Positions 6,266 through 41,618 of a stretch of DNA of 64,000 nucleotides are shown here, piece after piece. Numbering within the stretch: position 1 is the first letter of the stretch; each line of letters begins with the position of its first letter. The stretch spans positions 4,852,001 to 4,916,000 of the forward strand of contig JABAKD010000002.1 of the NCBI GenBank assembly GCA_012845835.1. Reading direction: 5' to 3'. Under the pieces are notes generated by a model. The model saw nothing but the letters and a program-made list of their open reading frames with translations. It was not told where the DNA came from and searched no databases. This DNA comes from Undaria pinnatifida (Eukaryota > Sar > Phaeophyceae > Laminariales > Alariaceae). The translations under genes and the position numbers were made by a program.

Positions 6266-7268
6266 ACACATATCCTGCTGCGCGGGTTCCTAACGGCAGC
6301 CATGCTACCGTAAATCTTTCGGACTAAATCTGTCCTCCAACGGCTCACAAGACTCACTGACCAATAATTAAATGTGGTTTAAAGCCTTTACCCCCCGGGA
6401 CTCATACATCATCCCCCCATTTGGCTATGGTACGACTATCGCCAACAACGTATATAGCACAGTTTGACGCGAGTCGACGAGGGTAGAAAAAGCTGAGTTA
6501 TTCTCGCGACAAGAAATGAAGGCACGTGCCGTAGTTGGGAGGGGGGAGGAGGGCCCGCTATGTGCCCCCGGATCGGAGTTAACGCTGGGAGGGAGCGCGG
6601 CAGAAGTGCGACGATACTACATGGGAGGAGGGAAAAAGAAATAGCATGTACTGCTGTATGATACCCCGTTGATCTCTTTTTTTTTATTTGGTCAAAATTT
6701 GGATCCCCCCGCCATTGGGGCGGAAGGGCCAGCCGTATTCTGTACTACTAAAGACAACGCAATGGTAGTGGTAGCACATTTTGGCCGATATACTTTTGTC
6801 TGACGGGACCCCTTGGCTGAGGAACGCCATCCAATATCGTTGGAACACCATGCAGCGGATAATACCCCGATACAAGAGCACCCGAGTCGAGAGCAGTCGC
6901 GAGTTAAGAGCGGTCAACTCGGCGTGTCCCGCCACACTAAAGGCTACGTATTTCTCGCTAAAGATAAGTGCAATGTGTCGTTAAGAGCCTTCGTTTGGGC
7001 TCGTCACGGGGCGCTCTTTAGTCGGGGTAACCCACCGTAAGCATTTCATCGCAGTTTCCGATATTTTTTTTGGTCGTGGGTCTTTTCGTAATTTTCATTT
7101 GTTGCTCAAGTGAGGTGCCTCAGGAAATTGAACCCTCGTTCCTACTGCGATACACAACACCCAGCAATTTCAAGCATGAATAGTGTTTTCCCCCAACACC
7201 TGGTTGGCAAGGTGCTAGCGGTACCTATTGTATTTTGCGGGGCTTTCCACCGTCCACGATCGGACCCG
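6266..7268. other. no gene recognised
   Basis: Unassigned. Near 7107-7125, AAGTGAGGTGCCTCAGG resembles the hairpin-bearing phrase seen at 14.82, 23.80 and 24.11 kb. Confidence 0.3.
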
Positions 7269-7665
7269 CGGGCCGGGTCAGGAGGTTTGTAATTTCTCGC
7301 GGGTCGAGGCGGTTCGGGTCAGGAGGTCTCACGGGTCGTGTCGGGTCGATAAGTTTTCAACTATCACGGGTCAGGTGAGGTCAGGTTGGGTCGGGACCCA
7401 CGGGCCGGGCCAGGAGGTTTCTAAACACTCGCGAATCGAGTCGTTTCGGGTCAGGAGGTCTCACGAGTTGAGTCGGGTTGAAAGGTTTTCAAATATCATG
7501 GGTCAGGTTAGGTCATGTCGGATCGGGACCTGCGGGCCGGGTCGGGAGGTTTATAAACACTCGCGGGTCGAGTCGGTTCGGCTCAGGAGGTCTCACGAGT
7601 CGGGTCGAAAAGTGTGCAAATATTACGGGTTAGGTCAGGTAATGTCGGGTCGGGACACCCTGACC
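7269..7665 (+). repeat. three tandem 132-bp units of the GGGTC family
   Basis: Units start at 7269, 7401 and 7533, each at CGGGCCGGG, giving a period of exactly 132 bp. Each contains a CAGGAGGTTT phrase, a GTCAGGAGGTCTCACG phrase and a GTCAGGT..GTCGG..GGGACC end. Because 132 is a multiple of three, one plus frame stays open through all three units as 44-residue repeats rich in Gly, Arg, Ser and Val. I regard this as a noncoding array. Confidence 0.85.
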
Positions 7666-7764
7666 TGAAAGTTCAACCAGATAAAAAAATCCCATGGCCT
7701 ACTTGCTGTGGATATATTGACCAACATGTATTGAAACGTATACGTCATGTATTTCAACCATTCC
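7666..7764. other. spacer between array and foldback
   Basis: No feature recognised. Confidence 0.3.
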
Positions 7765-8240
7765 GAGTAGTTCCTCATGTGTGAAGCCCCAGAAACGCTG
7801 AGGTGTTACCCTTATCGAGCATGCGTCATGATCACGTGTGTCCAGCTCCTGAAGGACCCCCACCTTCATGGCCGGATGTGCAATGAGTACGTGAACACCG
7901 TTGCCTTCTTCAACAGCGGGTCGGGGGACCCTCGAATGTTCATGACCTTTAGCATTCCTGGCTTGGAGGAGGGCGGAGCGGGCGAGCGACAGTACCGACA
8001 CATCACCGACGACTTGGCACTGATGAAACAGCTCTTGTCGCTGTCGCTGGTCATTTTGTTCCCTGTCGCCCCACTCCTCTCCTCCACCACCACTGACACC
8101 CGGAACGCTAAACGCCAAGAACGCTCGAAGGCCGTTCGACCCGCCCTAGATGGTAAGGGTGTTCACGCTGTCGTTGCACGTCTGCCAGTGAACTTCGGCG
8201 TCCTTCAGGAGCAGGTGCATGTTCGTCAGGGTTTTTGACA
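7765..8240. mobile_element. foldback element 1 made of inverted gene fragments
   Basis: Two arms in opposite orientation, about 7826-7995 (+) and 8065-8232 (-), with a spacer of roughly 70 bp. Both arms translate to the N-terminal module of the protein encoded at 15,469-16,875: the left arm reads VQLLKD..CNEYVNTV..FSIPG, the right arm (minus) LLLKDAEVHWQTCNDSVNTL, a stop, then FSVPG. The gene reads VQLLEDSTFHCQLCND..FGVPG. At the DNA level GTCCAGCTCCTGAAGGAC (left) pairs with CTCCTGAAGGACGCC (right, reversed). The element is not itself a plausible gene, since arms are interrupted and opposed. A transcript crossing it could fold into a hairpin. Origin by capture or inverted duplication of a gene 5' end is inferred. 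Confidence 0.7.
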
Positions 8241-8259
8241 GCTCATAACCTGTCCTTCG

Positions 8260-8450
8260 GGTCACGTCGGGGGGCTTTCAAAATCTCACGGGTCGGGTCG
8301 GGTTGGGTCGAGTCAAGAGTGTGTTCAACATCTCACGTGTCAGGAGTTTTTTTAATATCTCACTCGGGTCGGATCGGGACATGTGCTACGATAGAGGTTG
8401 CGCTCGTGGGCGAAAAAGTCTTTAGTTGACTACGGGGCTCCTTTACCGGG
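8260..8450 (+). repeat. GGGTC-rich tract
   Basis: Degenerate GGGTC units, including CACGGGTCGGGTCGGGTTGG and TCTCACTCGGGTCGGATCGG, directly downstream of foldback element 1. Confidence 0.75.
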
Positions 8451-8637
8451 AAGTGACCAATACCGTCGGGAGGCCATTGTATTTTTCATGCGTTTTTGTT
8501 GGCCATGGGATTGTTCTTCAGGTTGCACCTTTTTTTTCTTTCTACTCTAGATCAGTTTTTGGGTGAGGTGTAGAGTTACAGACGAAGTTATTTTCAGAAA
8601 GTGTAGGCTCTACCTCTATAGTTACATGCGTCTCGGG

Positions 8638-8900
8638 TTACCCTGACCCGACCCGACCCGACCCGTGAAAACCCGTGATGTCCATGACTTGGGCTACGAT
8701 ACGGGCAGCACCCTGATGTTTGTGGAGCTTCTCACTTGATCGAGGAGCAGTGAATCTCACCCAAACCCTCACTTCGAGAACTTACTAAATGCGCAACCGA
8801 TGATGAACCTTGAGGATCCTTGTCGGTAAGGTATAGTCTAGGCAAAAGACGCTGCCCCCCTCGTAGCACGCGTAGTATTTGCTGTAGGTGTATGTGCAAT
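8638..8900 (+). repeat. ACCCG tract plus spacer unit, copy 1
   Basis: Begins with CCTGACCCGACCCGACCCG and continues with GCAGCACCCTGATGTTTGTG, a GAGGAGC...TTCGAGAAC stretch and TCGTAGCACGCG. The same order is found at 9,700-9,990. Together with the preceding foldback and GGGTC tract this forms a composite duplicated in tandem. Confidence 0.65.
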
Positions 8901-9085
8901 GTGAAGGAGCGGGACCCATGGTACGGTGGGGGGTGCACCGACTTTTTTCGCGGGGTCCTCACTTGAGTGAGGACCTCTGCGTTTACTGAGTGGTACCCTC
9001 AACTAATTTTGCAGAAGATGGAAGCACATACCGGTGAGGCTAGATACGTTCGAATGATACTGAAAACACAACAAATGATATCCTA
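8901..9085. other. spacer with 10-bp-stem hairpin
   Basis: Contains a perfect hairpin at 8954-8975, GGTCCTCACT / AGTGAGGACC with a 2-base loop. Otherwise nothing is recognised. Confidence 0.5.
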
Positions 9086-9089
9086 AGGT

Positions 9090-9560
9090 AATACTGATAT
9101 CGAGTACTTCCTCAAGCAAGGAGACCCAGAAACAACAGAATGCTGCTCCCCTATGGAAGCACGCGCCATGATCCCTTGTGTCAGGAGTCCAACTGTTATT
9201 GGCAGATGTGTAACGATTGCGTGGAGACCATTGTTTCCAAGGGCTGGTCGGGCGTCATTCGAATGTTCATGGCGTTTAGCGTTCTTGGCTTGGAGGAGGT
9301 AGGAGCGGGCGGGTGGCAGTACCGACACATCACCGACAAGTTGACACCGACGAGACAACTCTTGTCGCTGTCGCCGGTCGTGTTCTATGTCCCCCCACCC
9401 CTCCCCTTCACCACCACTGACACCCGGAAAGCTAAACGCCATGAACCCGCGAATGCCGTTGGACACGCCCTAGACGGGAAGGGTGTTCACGCAGTCGCTG
9501 CACGTCTGCCAGTGGAGCTTGGCGTCCTCCAGGAGCTGCGTACGTGTGAATCCGTTTTTT
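9090..9560. mobile_element. foldback element 2 made of inverted gene fragments
   Basis: Second copy of the structure at 7.8-8.2 kb. The left arm (+) reads WQMCNDCVETI..FMAFSVLG. The right arm, on the minus strand, reads QLLEDAKLHWQTCSDCVNTL, a TAG stop, then GFMAFSFPG. Its right arm has the same in-frame stop position as element 1, so the two elements share a common ancestor already carrying the stop. Outer flanks also match (GAGTACTTCCTCA..ACCCAGAAAC versus GAGTAGTTCCTCA..CCCAGAAAC at 7761). Confidence 0.7.
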
Positions 9561-9599
9561 TCACTGGTCAAGACCGGAACCGTGGGTCAAGTTAAAGGG

Positions 9600-9990
9600 C
9601 TTTAATAATATCGCAACTCGAGTTTGGTCGAGCCCGAGGCGTACTCGAAATCAAACACAGGTCGAGCCGGGTCGGGCCAGGAGTGCTTGTATAGCTCATG
9701 GGTCACCCCCGACCTGACCCGACCCGACCCGACCCGATCCGACCCGCGAGAGTTTACCGGCCCCGTGATATGAAAGCCCATGATATTTATGGCGTACGAT
9801 TCGATAGCCGTAGCACCCTGATGTTTCTGGAGTTCCTCGCTAGATTGAGGAGCTGTGCATTTGACCCAATCACTCTCTTTGAGAACGCGTTGAACGTGCA
9901 ACCCCACGAACAACGAGAAGCCCCGCCAGTCGAGAACATTTTGGACAGAGTGTGCCTCGTGCCTCTTTCGTAGCACGTCTCATCTAGGCG
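9600..9990. repeat. GGGTC/ACCCG tracts plus spacer unit, copy 2
   Basis: GTCGAGCCGGGTCGGGCC on one side, then an inverted run CCTGACCCGACCCGACCCG (9714 onward), then the unit shared with 8.65-8.90 kb (GTAGCACCCTGATGTTTCTG, GAGGAGCTGTG, TTTGAGAACGCG, TCGTAGCACGTC). Confidence 0.7.
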
Positions 9991-12029: not shown

Positions 12030-12745
12030 TTTGGAAAATGGTCAAAGGGGGGTACACCCAAGGGTGTTTTAGTCATGCGGGGGTACAGAGAAAACACGGG
12101 CGCGGACCGTGCCCGCGCTTCCCCCAAACGGCGTAATTTTTTTTCTCAATCCTGACGCGCTGGCATGACGCCCGCAGCCCGCAGCCCATGCCGAGCACGC
12201 ACACCGTTTTGTTTTTTTTCGGGTACGGTATTGGGGCAAACGGTGCCGCGGCGAAGGAGGGGGCAACCTCTTCACCCCTTTTGACTAGAACGTGGGGGGG
12301 TATACCCCAAAAAATCTACTAATTTTATCCTGTACTCCCGTTTAGCTGCATTTGTCCCCCATTTGACTGAAAACATTACCGGCGATTGACCGATTCTGAC
12401 GCCTTCAAGAGCAAGTACAGCGGGCAGCTGCACGTCACCGCTCAACGGCTCGAATAGACCACGAGCGGAACATCCAGTAATTGCTAATAGCTGCGATCGT
12501 TTATCCCCGAGAAAATGACGGAACAGGAAACAAACTAAACAAAACAAATATTAAACGGTTACGACGAAGACAAGCGGCAAGTACCATATATCTGCTTCTT
12601 ACCGTTGAGGTATTGAATATCAACAAGAGACGATAATAAACAAATGCGAAATTTACTCGGGGAGCCACAACACAGAATCCTACTCTTCATACGGCTACGG
12701 CCATACGTGGGCACGTCCCGCCCGACGAAACAAACAAACAAAACA
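12030..12745 (+). repeat. long inverted repeat, left arm
   Basis: Pairs with 12,797-13,462 in reverse complement: GTGGGCACGTCCCGCCCGAC (12708) against its complement near 12815-12835, GCGATCGTTTATCCCCGAG against CTCGGGGATAAACGATCG, and GCGTCAGAATCGGTCAATCG on the other arm. The minus strand of this arm keeps a 91-codon frame (12272-12547) with mixed composition (TGCSARGLFEPLSGDVQLPA). The other arm lacks about 10 bp inside this frame. Confidence 0.85.
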
Positions 12746-12796
12746 AAGCCCGACGATACAAAATGGTATTTGCCGCTTGTCTTGTGGTTTCCGTTA
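12746..12796. other. loop of the long inverted repeat
   Basis: About 50 bp of spacer. It contains ATGGTATTTGCCGCTTGTCT, which recurs in the right arm at 12923, so the centre is itself internally duplicated. Confidence 0.7.
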
Positions 12797-13462
12797 ATAT
12801 TTGTTTTGTTTAGTTTGTTTCGTCGGGCGGGACGTGCCCACGTATGGCCGTAGTCGCATGACGATGAGGATTCTGTGTTTTGGCTCCCTGATTCACTTCG
12901 CATTTATTAAGAAGCAGATATATGGTATTTGCCGCTTGTCTTCGTCGTTACCGTTAAGTATTTGTTTTGTTTAGTTTGTTTCTTGTTCCGTCATTTTCTC
13001 GGGGATAAACGATCGTAGCTATTAGCGATTACTGGATGTTCCGCTCGTGGTCTATTCGAGCCGTTGAGCGGTGACGTGCAGCCGCCCGCTGTACAGGCGT
13101 CAGAATCGGTCAATCGGGGGTACCGTTTTCAGTCAAATGGGGGATAAATGCAATCAAACGGGGGTACAGGATAAAAATAGTAGATTTCTTGGGGTATACC
13201 CCCCCACGTTTCTTCAAAAGGGGGGAACAGGTTGCCCCCTCCTTCGCCGCGGCCCCGTTTGCCCCAATACCGAACCCGAACAAAAGCAAAAACGGTGTTT
13301 ATGCTCGGCATGGGCTGCGGGTGTCATGCCAGCGCGTCAGAATTCAATTTTACGCCGTTTGGGGGAAGCACAGGCACGTTCCGCGCCCGTGTTTTCTCTG
13401 CACCCCCACACGACCAAGCAACCGCGGGGTGTAATCCCCTTTGACCGTTTCCTTCTTTTTAT
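12797..13462 (-). repeat. long inverted repeat, right arm
   Basis: Reverse complement of 12,030-12,745 with scattered substitutions and small indels. Similarity fades around CCCTTTGACCGTTTCC. Neither arm shows an obvious transposase or target-site duplication. Confidence 0.85.
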
Positions 13463-15468: not shown

Positions 15469-16875
15469 ATGTCTGTCCAGCTGCTGGAAGACAGCACATT
15501 CCACTGCCAATTGTGCAACGACTGTGTTGCCACCCTCACGTACGAGAGCCCGTCGGGAGGCCCTCGCACGTTTAAGAAGTTCGGTGTCCCAGGCAGGGGG
15601 AAGGGTGGCGCAAACGACGCTACGGGTGACAATAATAACGACAAAGGTATCCCGGTCGCCCTCGGGAACGGAGTAGTGGTCACGACGAAGACGGTGGAAG
15701 TGGAGGATGCTGGGGATGGCGAGGGAGGTACGCGAGGGGACCTGCCGGTGCCGCTGGGCTTAGAGGTGTGGAAGGCACGGCGTGAAAAGCGCAAGGCTGC
15801 GTCAATGACGGCGGCATCGGATGCGGCTGCTGCTGTCGCGCCTACGGCGGCCATGGGAGATACGGTGACGGATGCTGACGCTGCTGGGGGTGCTGTGACC
15901 GGTGGTGTTGCTGCGGGTGCTTCGACTAGTCGTGGTGGTGATGCCGCGGCTGCTGCTGCGACTGCGCCGCCAGCCACGGGTGTTCTGGCGCAAGCTTTGA
16001 CGGCGGCAACTGCAGTTATGGCGAAGTTCGTCTCAGCGCCCGCAAATGTGGGCGATATGGGGGCAGGAACTGGGTCGCGGGGCGTGGTGGAGCGGTCATC
16101 TGAGCGTGAAAGCAAGTTGGAAGCCAGCAGCAGCAACGATGGCTGCGAAAACGCGAGCTGCCACGACAACAGCAAAAACAACGTCAGCAAGGACAGCAGC
16201 AGCAGCAGCTGCAGCAAGGGTAAGGACAGCTGTCTCACGAAGTGCACCGGGCCGGGGAGTACCGCCCCGAACTCGCCCGAGGAGCCGATGCAGTTCTTTT
16301 CAGAGGACCAGAACAGCGAAGACAGTGCCAGTCTGACACTCGCGAGTCGCACCAGCAGTGACAGCGACGTCGTGGCCGCTGCGGCCGCGTGTCTTCAAAC
16401 GCTCTCTCCCCCAAAGCCACAGAGGGCAGGGGAGACACTTACCGGAGGAGTGCGGGCGAAAGCGCAAGCCCTGGAACGCAAACTTGCCGGGGTAAACGAG
16501 GACTTACCCAACGAATCGCCAAAGCCCGTTTTTTCCATTGCTTCCCGAGCGGAGAGTTGCGGCAGCGAGACGCTTTTTGGGGGGTTGGTCTCCCATTACT
16601 CTTCCGGCGTCGTCGGGAACTCGGTTGTCGGGGGTAACGGGGGCTTTACGCAGCCGAGAGGTGAGTGGGATCTTGGAGAAGGCAACCGTGAGCACATGGC
16701 GGCCAACTGCAACGGTGGTGGCGGTATTGGCCACGAAGACCAGGGAGAGAGTGAGAAGGAGGCCAAGACTGGCGGCGGCTGGGGCCGATGGGCTTTGTGC
16801 GGGGTAGCTGCGGTCGGGGTGGGAGTCGTAGGCGTAGCGGTGTGGGCCTACGGCGGACGGCCATCGCGCCGCTAA
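15469..16875 (+). CDS. tail-anchored low-complexity protein with N-terminal Cys cluster (468 aa)
   Basis: The first ATG of a long open frame is at 15469 and TAA ends at 16875; no intron is needed. Residues 1-42 form a distinct module (MSVQLLEDSTFHCQLCNDCV, Cys at 13, 16 and 19, then an R..F..FGVPG close). Similarity to the foldback arms begins at this Met, which supports the start. Residues 95-110 are basic (VWKARREKRKAA), about 110-200 are Ala/Gly/Thr-rich, and the middle is Ser/Asn/Lys-rich with Cys (SSSSCSKGKDSC). Residues 441-461 are one hydrophobic segment (WALCGVAAVGVGVVGVAVWA) followed by a short basic tail (GGRPSRR), a tail-anchored layout. Function is unknown. The Cys cluster might bind metal or form disulfides; a place in an intracellular membrane facing the cytosol is inferred. 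The 3' end is partly duplicated at 16,988-17,072. Confidence 0.72.
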   Translation: MSVQLLEDSTFHCQLCNDCVATLTYESPSGGPRTFKKFGVPGRGKGGANDATGDNNNDKGIPVALGNGVVVTTKTVEVEDAGDGEGGTRGDLPVPLGLEVWKARREKRKAASMTAASDAAAAVAPTAAMGDTVTDADAAGGAVTGGVAAGASTSRGGDAAAAAATAPPATGVLAQALTAATAVMAKFVSAPANVGDMGAGTGSRGVVERSSERESKLEASSSNDGCENASCHDNSKNNVSKDSSSSSCSKGKDSCLTKCTGPGSTAPNSPEEPMQFFSEDQNSEDSASLTLASRTSSDSDVVAAAAACLQTLSPPKPQRAGETLTGGVRAKAQALERKLAGVNEDLPNESPKPVFSIASRAESCGSETLFGGLVSHYSSGVVGNSVVGGNGGFTQPRGEWDLGEGNREHMAANCNGGGGIGHEDQGESEKEAKTGGGWGRWALCGVAAVGVGVVGVAVWAYGGRPSRR

Positions 16876-39878: not shown

Positions 39879-40109
39879 ACAAGGGGTTATGCCAACCATA
39901 CGTGTCTCCGATGTACGTAGGAAGACTACTACGTCCCACATGGAGCCATTCGATGCACTCCATGAGCATGATAATCTGAAACGTGGCAATGCTGAACCAG
40001 ATGCGTGACAAAATGATGGCCCACTGTAGTTTTTCTGGCGTTAGCTGCATATCGGGGGGAGGAGGAACAAACCAAAGTGGTACGCATATAGTATGTACGA
40101 TAGTAGCTG
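39879..40109. other. no gene recognised
   Basis: A minus frame covers 39670-40164 but spans the SINE and has no motif. Confidence 0.35.
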
Positions 40110-41618
40110 TAAAGCAAGTCAGGCGCCCTCCAACATACGCCGGCAAAGTACTCCTCAAAGTCATCGCGGGTCGCCCGAGTGACTATGGCGAACGCGAGAG
40201 CATTCTGCCGGAGGAACAGTGTGGGTTCAGACCCCAACGCTCGACGGTTGACATGATGTTCGTCGTACGACGACTGCAGGAACTGGCGCGGAAGAAGGAC
40301 ACCCCCTTGTACTTGTACTTTATCGACCTCACAAAAGCGTATGACCCCGTCGACCGAACCCTTCCTTGGGATGTCCTTGCTCGTTTTGGCGTGCCACCGA
40401 GAATGCTCGCCGTCATCCGCCAATTCCACGACGGTATGCAAGCATGCGTGCGGCTGGATGATGGAGAGTGCTCGGATAAGTTCGGCGTGGGGCAAGGTCT
40501 CAGATAAGGATGCGTGCTCGCGCCACTGCTGTTCAACATGTTTTTCACGGCGGTACTGCGTGTGGCCCAAAAACACTTCCTCGCTGATGCAGCCATCACG
40601 GACAACATGGTGAAGCTCCAACGAAAGGAGAAAGGCGACAAGAAAGACACTTCACGAAGAGACAAAGTCGACGGGCGGAGGGGGAAGGAGGGGAGGAGGT
40701 GCAGAGAGTGTGGGGTATGCTGTACGCAGACGATGCGGGCATCGTATCGCGATCACCAGAAGGGCTGGAGAGGATGATGACGGTGATCGTGACAGGGTGC
40801 TCGTCGTTCGGGCTTACGGTCTCGGAGTCGAAAACAGAGATCATGTGCCTGGAAACGAAAGGCGGGGGAAATGTGTCATTCACCATCAATGCAGCCGGCC
40901 AGGTATACAAACAACCGAGTTTGTGTACTTGGGCGGGGCTATCACCGCAGACAGAGACCTTAGCATTGAAATAACGCGGCGTCTTCAGAGGGCCTGGGCG
41001 TGCTTCCAGCGGTGCAAGAGGGGAATCTATGATCGCCCGGGTGTGCCCTTACGGCTGAAGGTGCGGTTGCTGAAAGTTGAGGTGGTCGAGACACTACCCC
41101 ACGGTTGAATGACGTGAAGCCCGAACAAGCCTGACTATGACAGGCTACGACGGGGTCACCACGCCATGTTCCTCCGATTCCTCGGATGGCGGAAACGGAA
41201 GCGCGATCACCACACCCTATCGTACGCCGACGCGCTTACCAAGGCAGCTTCCGAAAGAAAGAGGCGATAATGCTCATACGGAGGGTACAGTTTGCGGGAT
41301 TCGTAGCACGTATGGGGGAGGAGGGTCTGCCACACAGGGTGGTATTTGGGGAGCTTGTTGGGGGTAAGGGCTACTCAGGGGGGCAAGAGCAGGACTAGAT
41401 GGCTCATCTAAAGGATGATATGTCGGTCTTTGAAATGAGATTCGAAGGGTGGTGAAAGGCTGCTCAGAAGGCCGGCAGAGGGTTTCGACGAGTAGAGGAG
41501 GGAGCCGAGTTGTTCATGCGGAAATGGCATGAGGCGGAGAGACGCAGAGCTGCAGAGCGACACGCAAAAGATGGGGCAGCGCCATCCACCGTCGGCATCT
41601 CTATGCGGCCGGGGGGAT
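40110..41618 (+). pseudogene. non-LTR retrotransposon reverse transcriptase, copy 1 (decayed)
   Basis: Reverse transcriptase motifs in order: [30 protein letters not shown] (40318 on), [24 protein letters not shown] then an in-frame TAA (40505-40507) in place of Gln before GCVLAPLLFN, and after a frameshift YADDAGIVSRSPEGLERM (catalytic YADD codons 40723-40734), then LTVSESKTEIMCL. A further shift leads to FVYLGGAITADRDLSIEIT, and a stop at 41106 precedes DYDRLRRGHHAMFLRFLGW. After ASERKRR the frame moves again to FAGFVARMGEEGLP. It lacks its 5' part (no endonuclease seen). At least one nonsense codon and three frame changes make it inactive. Confidence 0.9.

Follow-up and report, generated by a model that had tools for sequence, protein, structure and literature searches.

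The window analysed here is a stretch of 64,000 nucleotides (C26:4852001-4916000) in an assembly of 511,146,479 bp and 68 contigs; positions below are those of the window unless a contig is named. It carries two small foldback elements, E1 (7837-8220) and E2 (9164-9544), each formed by two convergent copies of a 5′ coding module. The left arm of E1 (7837-7986, + strand) holds the module in sense orientation with an open frame, as seen by profile search, genome search and translation. The right arm (8074-8220, − strand) is the inverted module with its ATG retained and one in-frame TAG, placed by profile search, genome search and the alignment used for the tree. Between them lies a centre with no assigned strand (7987-8073, BLAST). 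In E2 the left arm (9164-9313, + strand; profile match 9176-9313) has lost about 10 nt near its start, and the right arm (9398-9544, − strand) carries an in-frame TAG at the position of the TAG in E1. Translation reveals a pattern common to the four arms. The module copies are spaced by 84-87 nt inside each element, the BLAST arms of E1 (7842-7961 and 8099-8215) leave 137 nt between them, and the reading direction of every module runs toward the element centre.

E1 and E2 are one direct tandem duplication, not two separate insertions: they are 75% identical over 529 nt by BLAST and lie in the same orientation. The aligned part of the first unit copy, containing E1, is found at 7764-8287 (+ strand) and that of the second, containing E2, at 9101-9612 (+ strand), both by BLAST and alignment. 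A downstream part of the unit is recognized by BLAST at 8666-8781 (+ strand) in the first copy and, with 75% identity, at 9771-9886 (+ strand) in the second. Upstream of the unit there is a GGGTCGGG-rich satellite of GGGTCGG type (3 × 132 bp at 7262-7657); sequence related to it occurs at 191-365 and, in the opposite orientation, near 8640 and 9710. A high-copy dispersed repeat starting at about 10030 abuts the second unit. The module profile has no match in the satellite or in this repeat.

The sequence-only reading had assigned all four arms to the N-terminal module of the gene at 15469-16875 (+ strand; g15, the 15.5-kb gene). This is borne out by a search of the 511-Mb assembly with the 50-aa module of the gene, which recovers the arms at E = 3.5e-6, 1.1e-5 and 1.6e-5, and the E2 left arm weakly, at E = 0.0146. 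A profile built from the four arms and the gene, which these therefore match by construction, is placed at 7837-7986 (+), 8220-8074 (−), 9176-9313 (+) and 9544-9398 (−); its other matches in the window are at chance level (E 3 or more). The opposed arms with a short spacer described for each element reappear in a BLAST of the window, where both inverted pairs have E = 3e-11. At the DNA level the E1 arms are 72% identical over 120 nt, and the stretch 9200-9511 of E2 is an imperfect palindrome with 67% identity. The proposed DNA-level alignment of arms and gene was also carried out, and 6 of 6 comparisons beat 300 of 300 dinucleotide shuffles: the four arms score 46-67 against the gene, compared with shuffle means of 18-19, and the arm pairs within each element exceed all their shuffles as well. 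The identity to the 15.5-kb gene is indeed modest, as had been noted, the best BLAST match being 59 nt at 73% (E = 9e-4). The match to the paralogue g17 extends over 123 nt at 71% (E = 1e-8, in a smaller database than that of the g15 comparison).

By eye, g15 consists of the N-terminal module, an Ala-rich middle and a hydrophobic C-terminal segment. It has two further intact relatives on C26, g17 (C26:4740498-4741781, + strand) and g18 (C26:4446470-4447777, − strand), which are 92% identical to each other in protein. The genome-wide search for module loci, likewise proposed from the sequence, gives 10 matches, 9 of which fall within C26:4447631-4867618; the only one off C26, at C28:6789361, is set aside as chance (E 0.29). 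With full-length queries the family gives 17 and 18 matches, none of them off C26. In the 186 kb surrounding the window, a profile search brings up no additional module relics above chance level. Over the full length, dN/dS is 0.30 for g17/g18, and 0.49 and 0.51 for g15 against each of them. In the first 60 codons it is 0.40 for g15 versus g17 and 0.43 for g15 versus g18; the value of 1.47 for g17/g18 rests on about one synonymous change, hence constraint on the module is not demonstrated in this pair.

Pfam gives no match for g15, g17, g18 or the ORF of E1. The zinc-finger matches of the E2 ORF (5.5e-4 and 0.0016) are under the gathering score and are not relied on, and the single match of a PDB profile search, at E 0.23, is taken as chance. 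Two long ORFs in mutually opposite orientation share the C-terminal region of the family, as found in g15: one of 930 aa (C26 about 4619300-4622090, + strand) and one of 864 aa (C26 about 4752240-4754830, − strand). The former, the one of the two covered by the Pfam scan, has a weak match to otubain peptidases below the cut-off (E = 0.019). One scan of viral contigs produced 11 pattern matches, none of them confirmed as a relative. Separately, the EsV-1-7 cysteine motif has at least 150 matches over the cut-off genome-wide (150 of 2161 candidates scored), many on contig C30, and was found in 0 of 14 control genomes, the named ones being prokaryotes. The EsV-1-7 family is expanded in brown algae, so that the host genome looks brown-algal by this motif.

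Foldbacks as such are not rare in this part of the chromosome. When 4976 windows of 396 nt are drawn at random from the 186 kb that include the window, 18 reach the score of E1 (5 loci) and 19 that of E2 (6 loci), and a separate BLAST of the same 186 kb finds 15 inverted pairs. Comparable foldbacks are thus common there, and finding two weighs less. Palindromes detected by BLAST on C26 include those at 4801736, 4931699 and 4959727. Inside the window, a palindrome of 1.4 kb runs almost without interruption over 12036-13450 (C26:4864036-4865450); it is self-complementary at about 81%, with inner arms up to 96%. Outside the window, a palindromic stretch of 2.7 kb at C26:4947510-4950199 has arms 79-80% alike. 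An ORF at 39983-40507 resembles, by eye, a reverse-transcriptase fragment. Rfam at gathering thresholds has no match in the window.

A third foldback made from the same family, F3, is located 0.3 Mb from E1/E2 at C26:4543309-4545842. It spans 2.5 kb, with BLAST arms of 1179 and 1167 nt facing each other across 188 nt. The arms are 97.0% identical by BLAST and 98.0% when counted as 23 mismatches in 1167 aligned positions, none of which falls in the innermost 179. This number of mismatches speaks against an assembly palindrome. Each arm contains upstream sequence of a family member together with roughly its first 39 codons, and the position of the start codon reads CTG in both. Leaving gaps out of the count, the corresponding region of g17/g18 is 83-84% identical to the F3 arms along about 1.07 kb; BLAST gives 76-78% along 1.3-1.4 kb. 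Exact 21-mers are shared with g17 and g18 (29 and 81 of those tested), partly in a dispersed genomic repeat that occupies arm positions of about 56-364. Much of the sequence common to F3 and its paralogues is upstream of the coding region. F3 adjoins a gene body with two TGA and one TAA in frame and with further inverted pieces. This layout suggests that a minus-strand gene was disrupted by an inverted duplicate of its own 5′ part.

The relationships of the nine module copies are seen in a maximum-likelihood tree (150 columns kept, midpoint root for drawing). The E arms form a clade apart from g15, g17, g18 and F3 (93/93), within which E1-left groups with E2-left (88/89) and E1-right with E2-right (99/98); E2-left is a long branch, and the supports of 93/93 and 88/89 fall below the star level of the tool, 95/80. 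Arms of the same side group across the two elements, which makes it most likely that the inverted duplication is older than the tandem one. The three intact relatives fall outside the E branch, so the 15.5-kb gene is apparently a cousin of the arms and not the sequence from which they came. The earlier suggestion of a closer paralogue elsewhere holds in part: pairwise DNA matches are stronger to g17/g18 than to g15, but the tree puts the E arms outside all three. We note that the pairwise similarity of the E arms to g17 only slightly exceeds that to g15, which is compatible with a branch outside both. The F3 arms group together (100/100) on the g17/g18 side, so that an origin of F3 separate from that of the E foldback is supported by the tree. 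If no gene conversion homogenises its arms, F3 would be younger than the g17/g18 split (dS 0.12).

We then consider what constraint, if any, E1 and E2 retain. The + frame is open through both entire elements with two internal gaps of 3 nt each, and E1 and E2 have diverged less in their right arms than in their left ones; both observations count against a neutral relic. The two ORFs (7777-8238 and 9140-9595), each of about 115 codons in the same frame, might encode a short chimeric protein composed of the module and an antisense-derived tail. However, the differences between E1 and E2 are spread evenly over the codon positions of the shared + frame (18, 18 and 23; chi-square p 0.65), and dN/dS in this frame is 1.34, with 0.68-1.08 in the other five. 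In the right arm's own frame it is 0.65, and in single halves 0.63-1.27, each on few sites. The substitution pattern of E1 versus E2 is neutral, lacking the synonymous excess expected of a coding gene, which makes the chimeric protein barely credible.

The inverted arms, together with the high-copy repeat that abuts the second unit, could also point to a non-autonomous foldback transposon with a captured gene fragment. Such an element should occur in multiple dispersed copies; however, E1 used as a query against the whole genome matches E1 and E2 alone (2 candidates, both scored), and a longer query adds no copy of the element core (40 of 5786 candidates scored). Nor did terminal repeats or target-site duplications stand out by eye in the E1/E2 alignment. 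We consider a transposon origin very improbable.

Both elements have self-complementary, gene-derived arms, as a hairpin siRNA locus does, and their predicted folds are far more stable than shuffles (z −11.0 for E1 and −9.3 for E2, with 0 of 100 shuffles as stable in each case). Any inverted duplicate would show the same. In a phase-swap test, where alleles are exchanged between E1 and E2, 32 of 200 swaps on the + strand and 13 of 200 on the − strand are as stable as the real pair; hence there is no significant compensatory pairing, and the − strand result leans toward kept pairing. The 52 pairs shared by E1 and E2 include one two-sided change and five one-sided changes. A random-site simulation gave 0 of 150 copies as stable as the real one in four runs (two directions by two strands) and, of all results, is the one that would argue for maintained pairing. 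We do not take it as proof of selection on pairing, since we judge its null to be biased: one present-day copy is taken as the ancestor of the other, and inherited breaks are counted as new. The phase-swap test is free of this bias and is not significant. As for targets, the fewest 21-mer mismatches of E1 and E2 are 4 and 5 to g15, 2 and 2 to g17, and 3 and 3 to g18, and near-perfect complementarity to an intact relative is absent among these three scanned genes.

Hence, we suggest that E1 and E2 are, with good probability, non-functional, neutral relics of an inverted duplication in a rearranging gene cluster on C26. This reading draws on the homology and orientation of the arms, the neutral substitutions between E1 and E2, and another, more recent foldback of this family, F3. 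Of the two possibilities raised from the sequence at the outset, the data agree better with relics of inverted duplication, and from the same data we infer the absence of function; captured fragments acting on the gene family find no positive support for E1/E2 in the copy search, the substitutions, the pairing or the 21-mers. The source would be a member of the local C26 family whose intact copy is no longer found. Its promoter-proximal coding end would have been duplicated in inverted, convergent arrangement, possibly by template switching or by repair of a folded-back strand, as the layout of F3 suggests. The resulting foldback would then have been copied in tandem, giving E1 and E2, which later decayed without visible constraint.

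A different reading takes the inverted fragments of the family as a natural silencing locus, in which their transcripts form double-stranded RNA, are processed to small RNAs and dampen the intact paralogues, with E1/E2 as old members and F3 as the active one. It could draw on the long, nearly matched arms of F3 and their resemblance to g17/g18 with exact 21-mers to both, on Piwi-domain exons at one locus on C38 and a partial RNase III match on C22, and, with the reservation about its null, on the simulation beside the fold z-scores of E1/E2. As background, several brown algae have a single Argonaute, and Argonaute-bound RNAs of 21 nt are reported in Ectocarpus, according to the accessible text of PMC12867755. 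Against it stand the 21-mer mismatches of E1/E2, the phase-swap result, the largely upstream and partly repetitive nature of the F3 sequence shared with the paralogues, and the Ectocarpus pre-miRNAs, for which the accessible part of PMC4513859 states no evidence of derivation from protein-coding genes. On balance we regard this reading as unlikely. The idea fits F3, as a predicted hairpin source, better than E1/E2. The bolder proposal, that the family repeatedly turns its own upstream region and 5′ coding end into inverted-repeat loci, that young F3 silences intact paralogues as hairpin RNA via Argonaute, and that E1/E2 are its fossil predecessors, is distinctly unlikely. If true, it would mean gene-derived hairpin silencing in a lineage whose Ectocarpus miRNAs showed no such origin. 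In the open-licence literature searched, no report of gene-derived inverted-repeat silencing in brown algae was found.

On a single segment of the chromosome, one gene family is caught at two ages of inverted duplication, its arms differing by about 2% in one case and by about 28% in the other. Plant MIRNA genes reportedly arise by inverted duplication (Allen et al. 2004). An update of this model is given in PMC3237417, as far as its accessible text goes. E1 and E2 resemble such loci in being close inverted copies of a protein-coding fragment with relatives elsewhere in the genome. Unlike in the plant model, they have no nearly perfect target site left in any of the three intact genes, and the host looks like a brown alga, a group in which the Ectocarpus miRNAs lack evidence of such an origin in the same part of PMC4513859. 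If F3 makes small RNAs, it would offer a direct test of whether the plant model of target-born hairpin silencers holds in brown algae; if it makes none, ordinary decay of inverted duplications is documented.

In its anatomy F3 is like a natural locus of hairpin silencing, for example soybean GmIRCHS (the I locus), where inverted repeats of a broken member lie within a clustered gene family, according to the accessible portions of PMC13051633 and PMC3804491. For GmIRCHS, RNA silencing is reported in soybean (PMC13051633, same portion), whereas the likeness of F3 is one of anatomy. E1/E2 differ from GmIRCHS in that their arms are about 70% alike. With inverted pseudogene fragments in general, E1 and E2 share local rearrangement, stops and neutral drift. 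However, unlike such fragments, this small family has undergone what appear to be two separate events, E and F3, and the younger one, F3, has upstream sequence in both arms.
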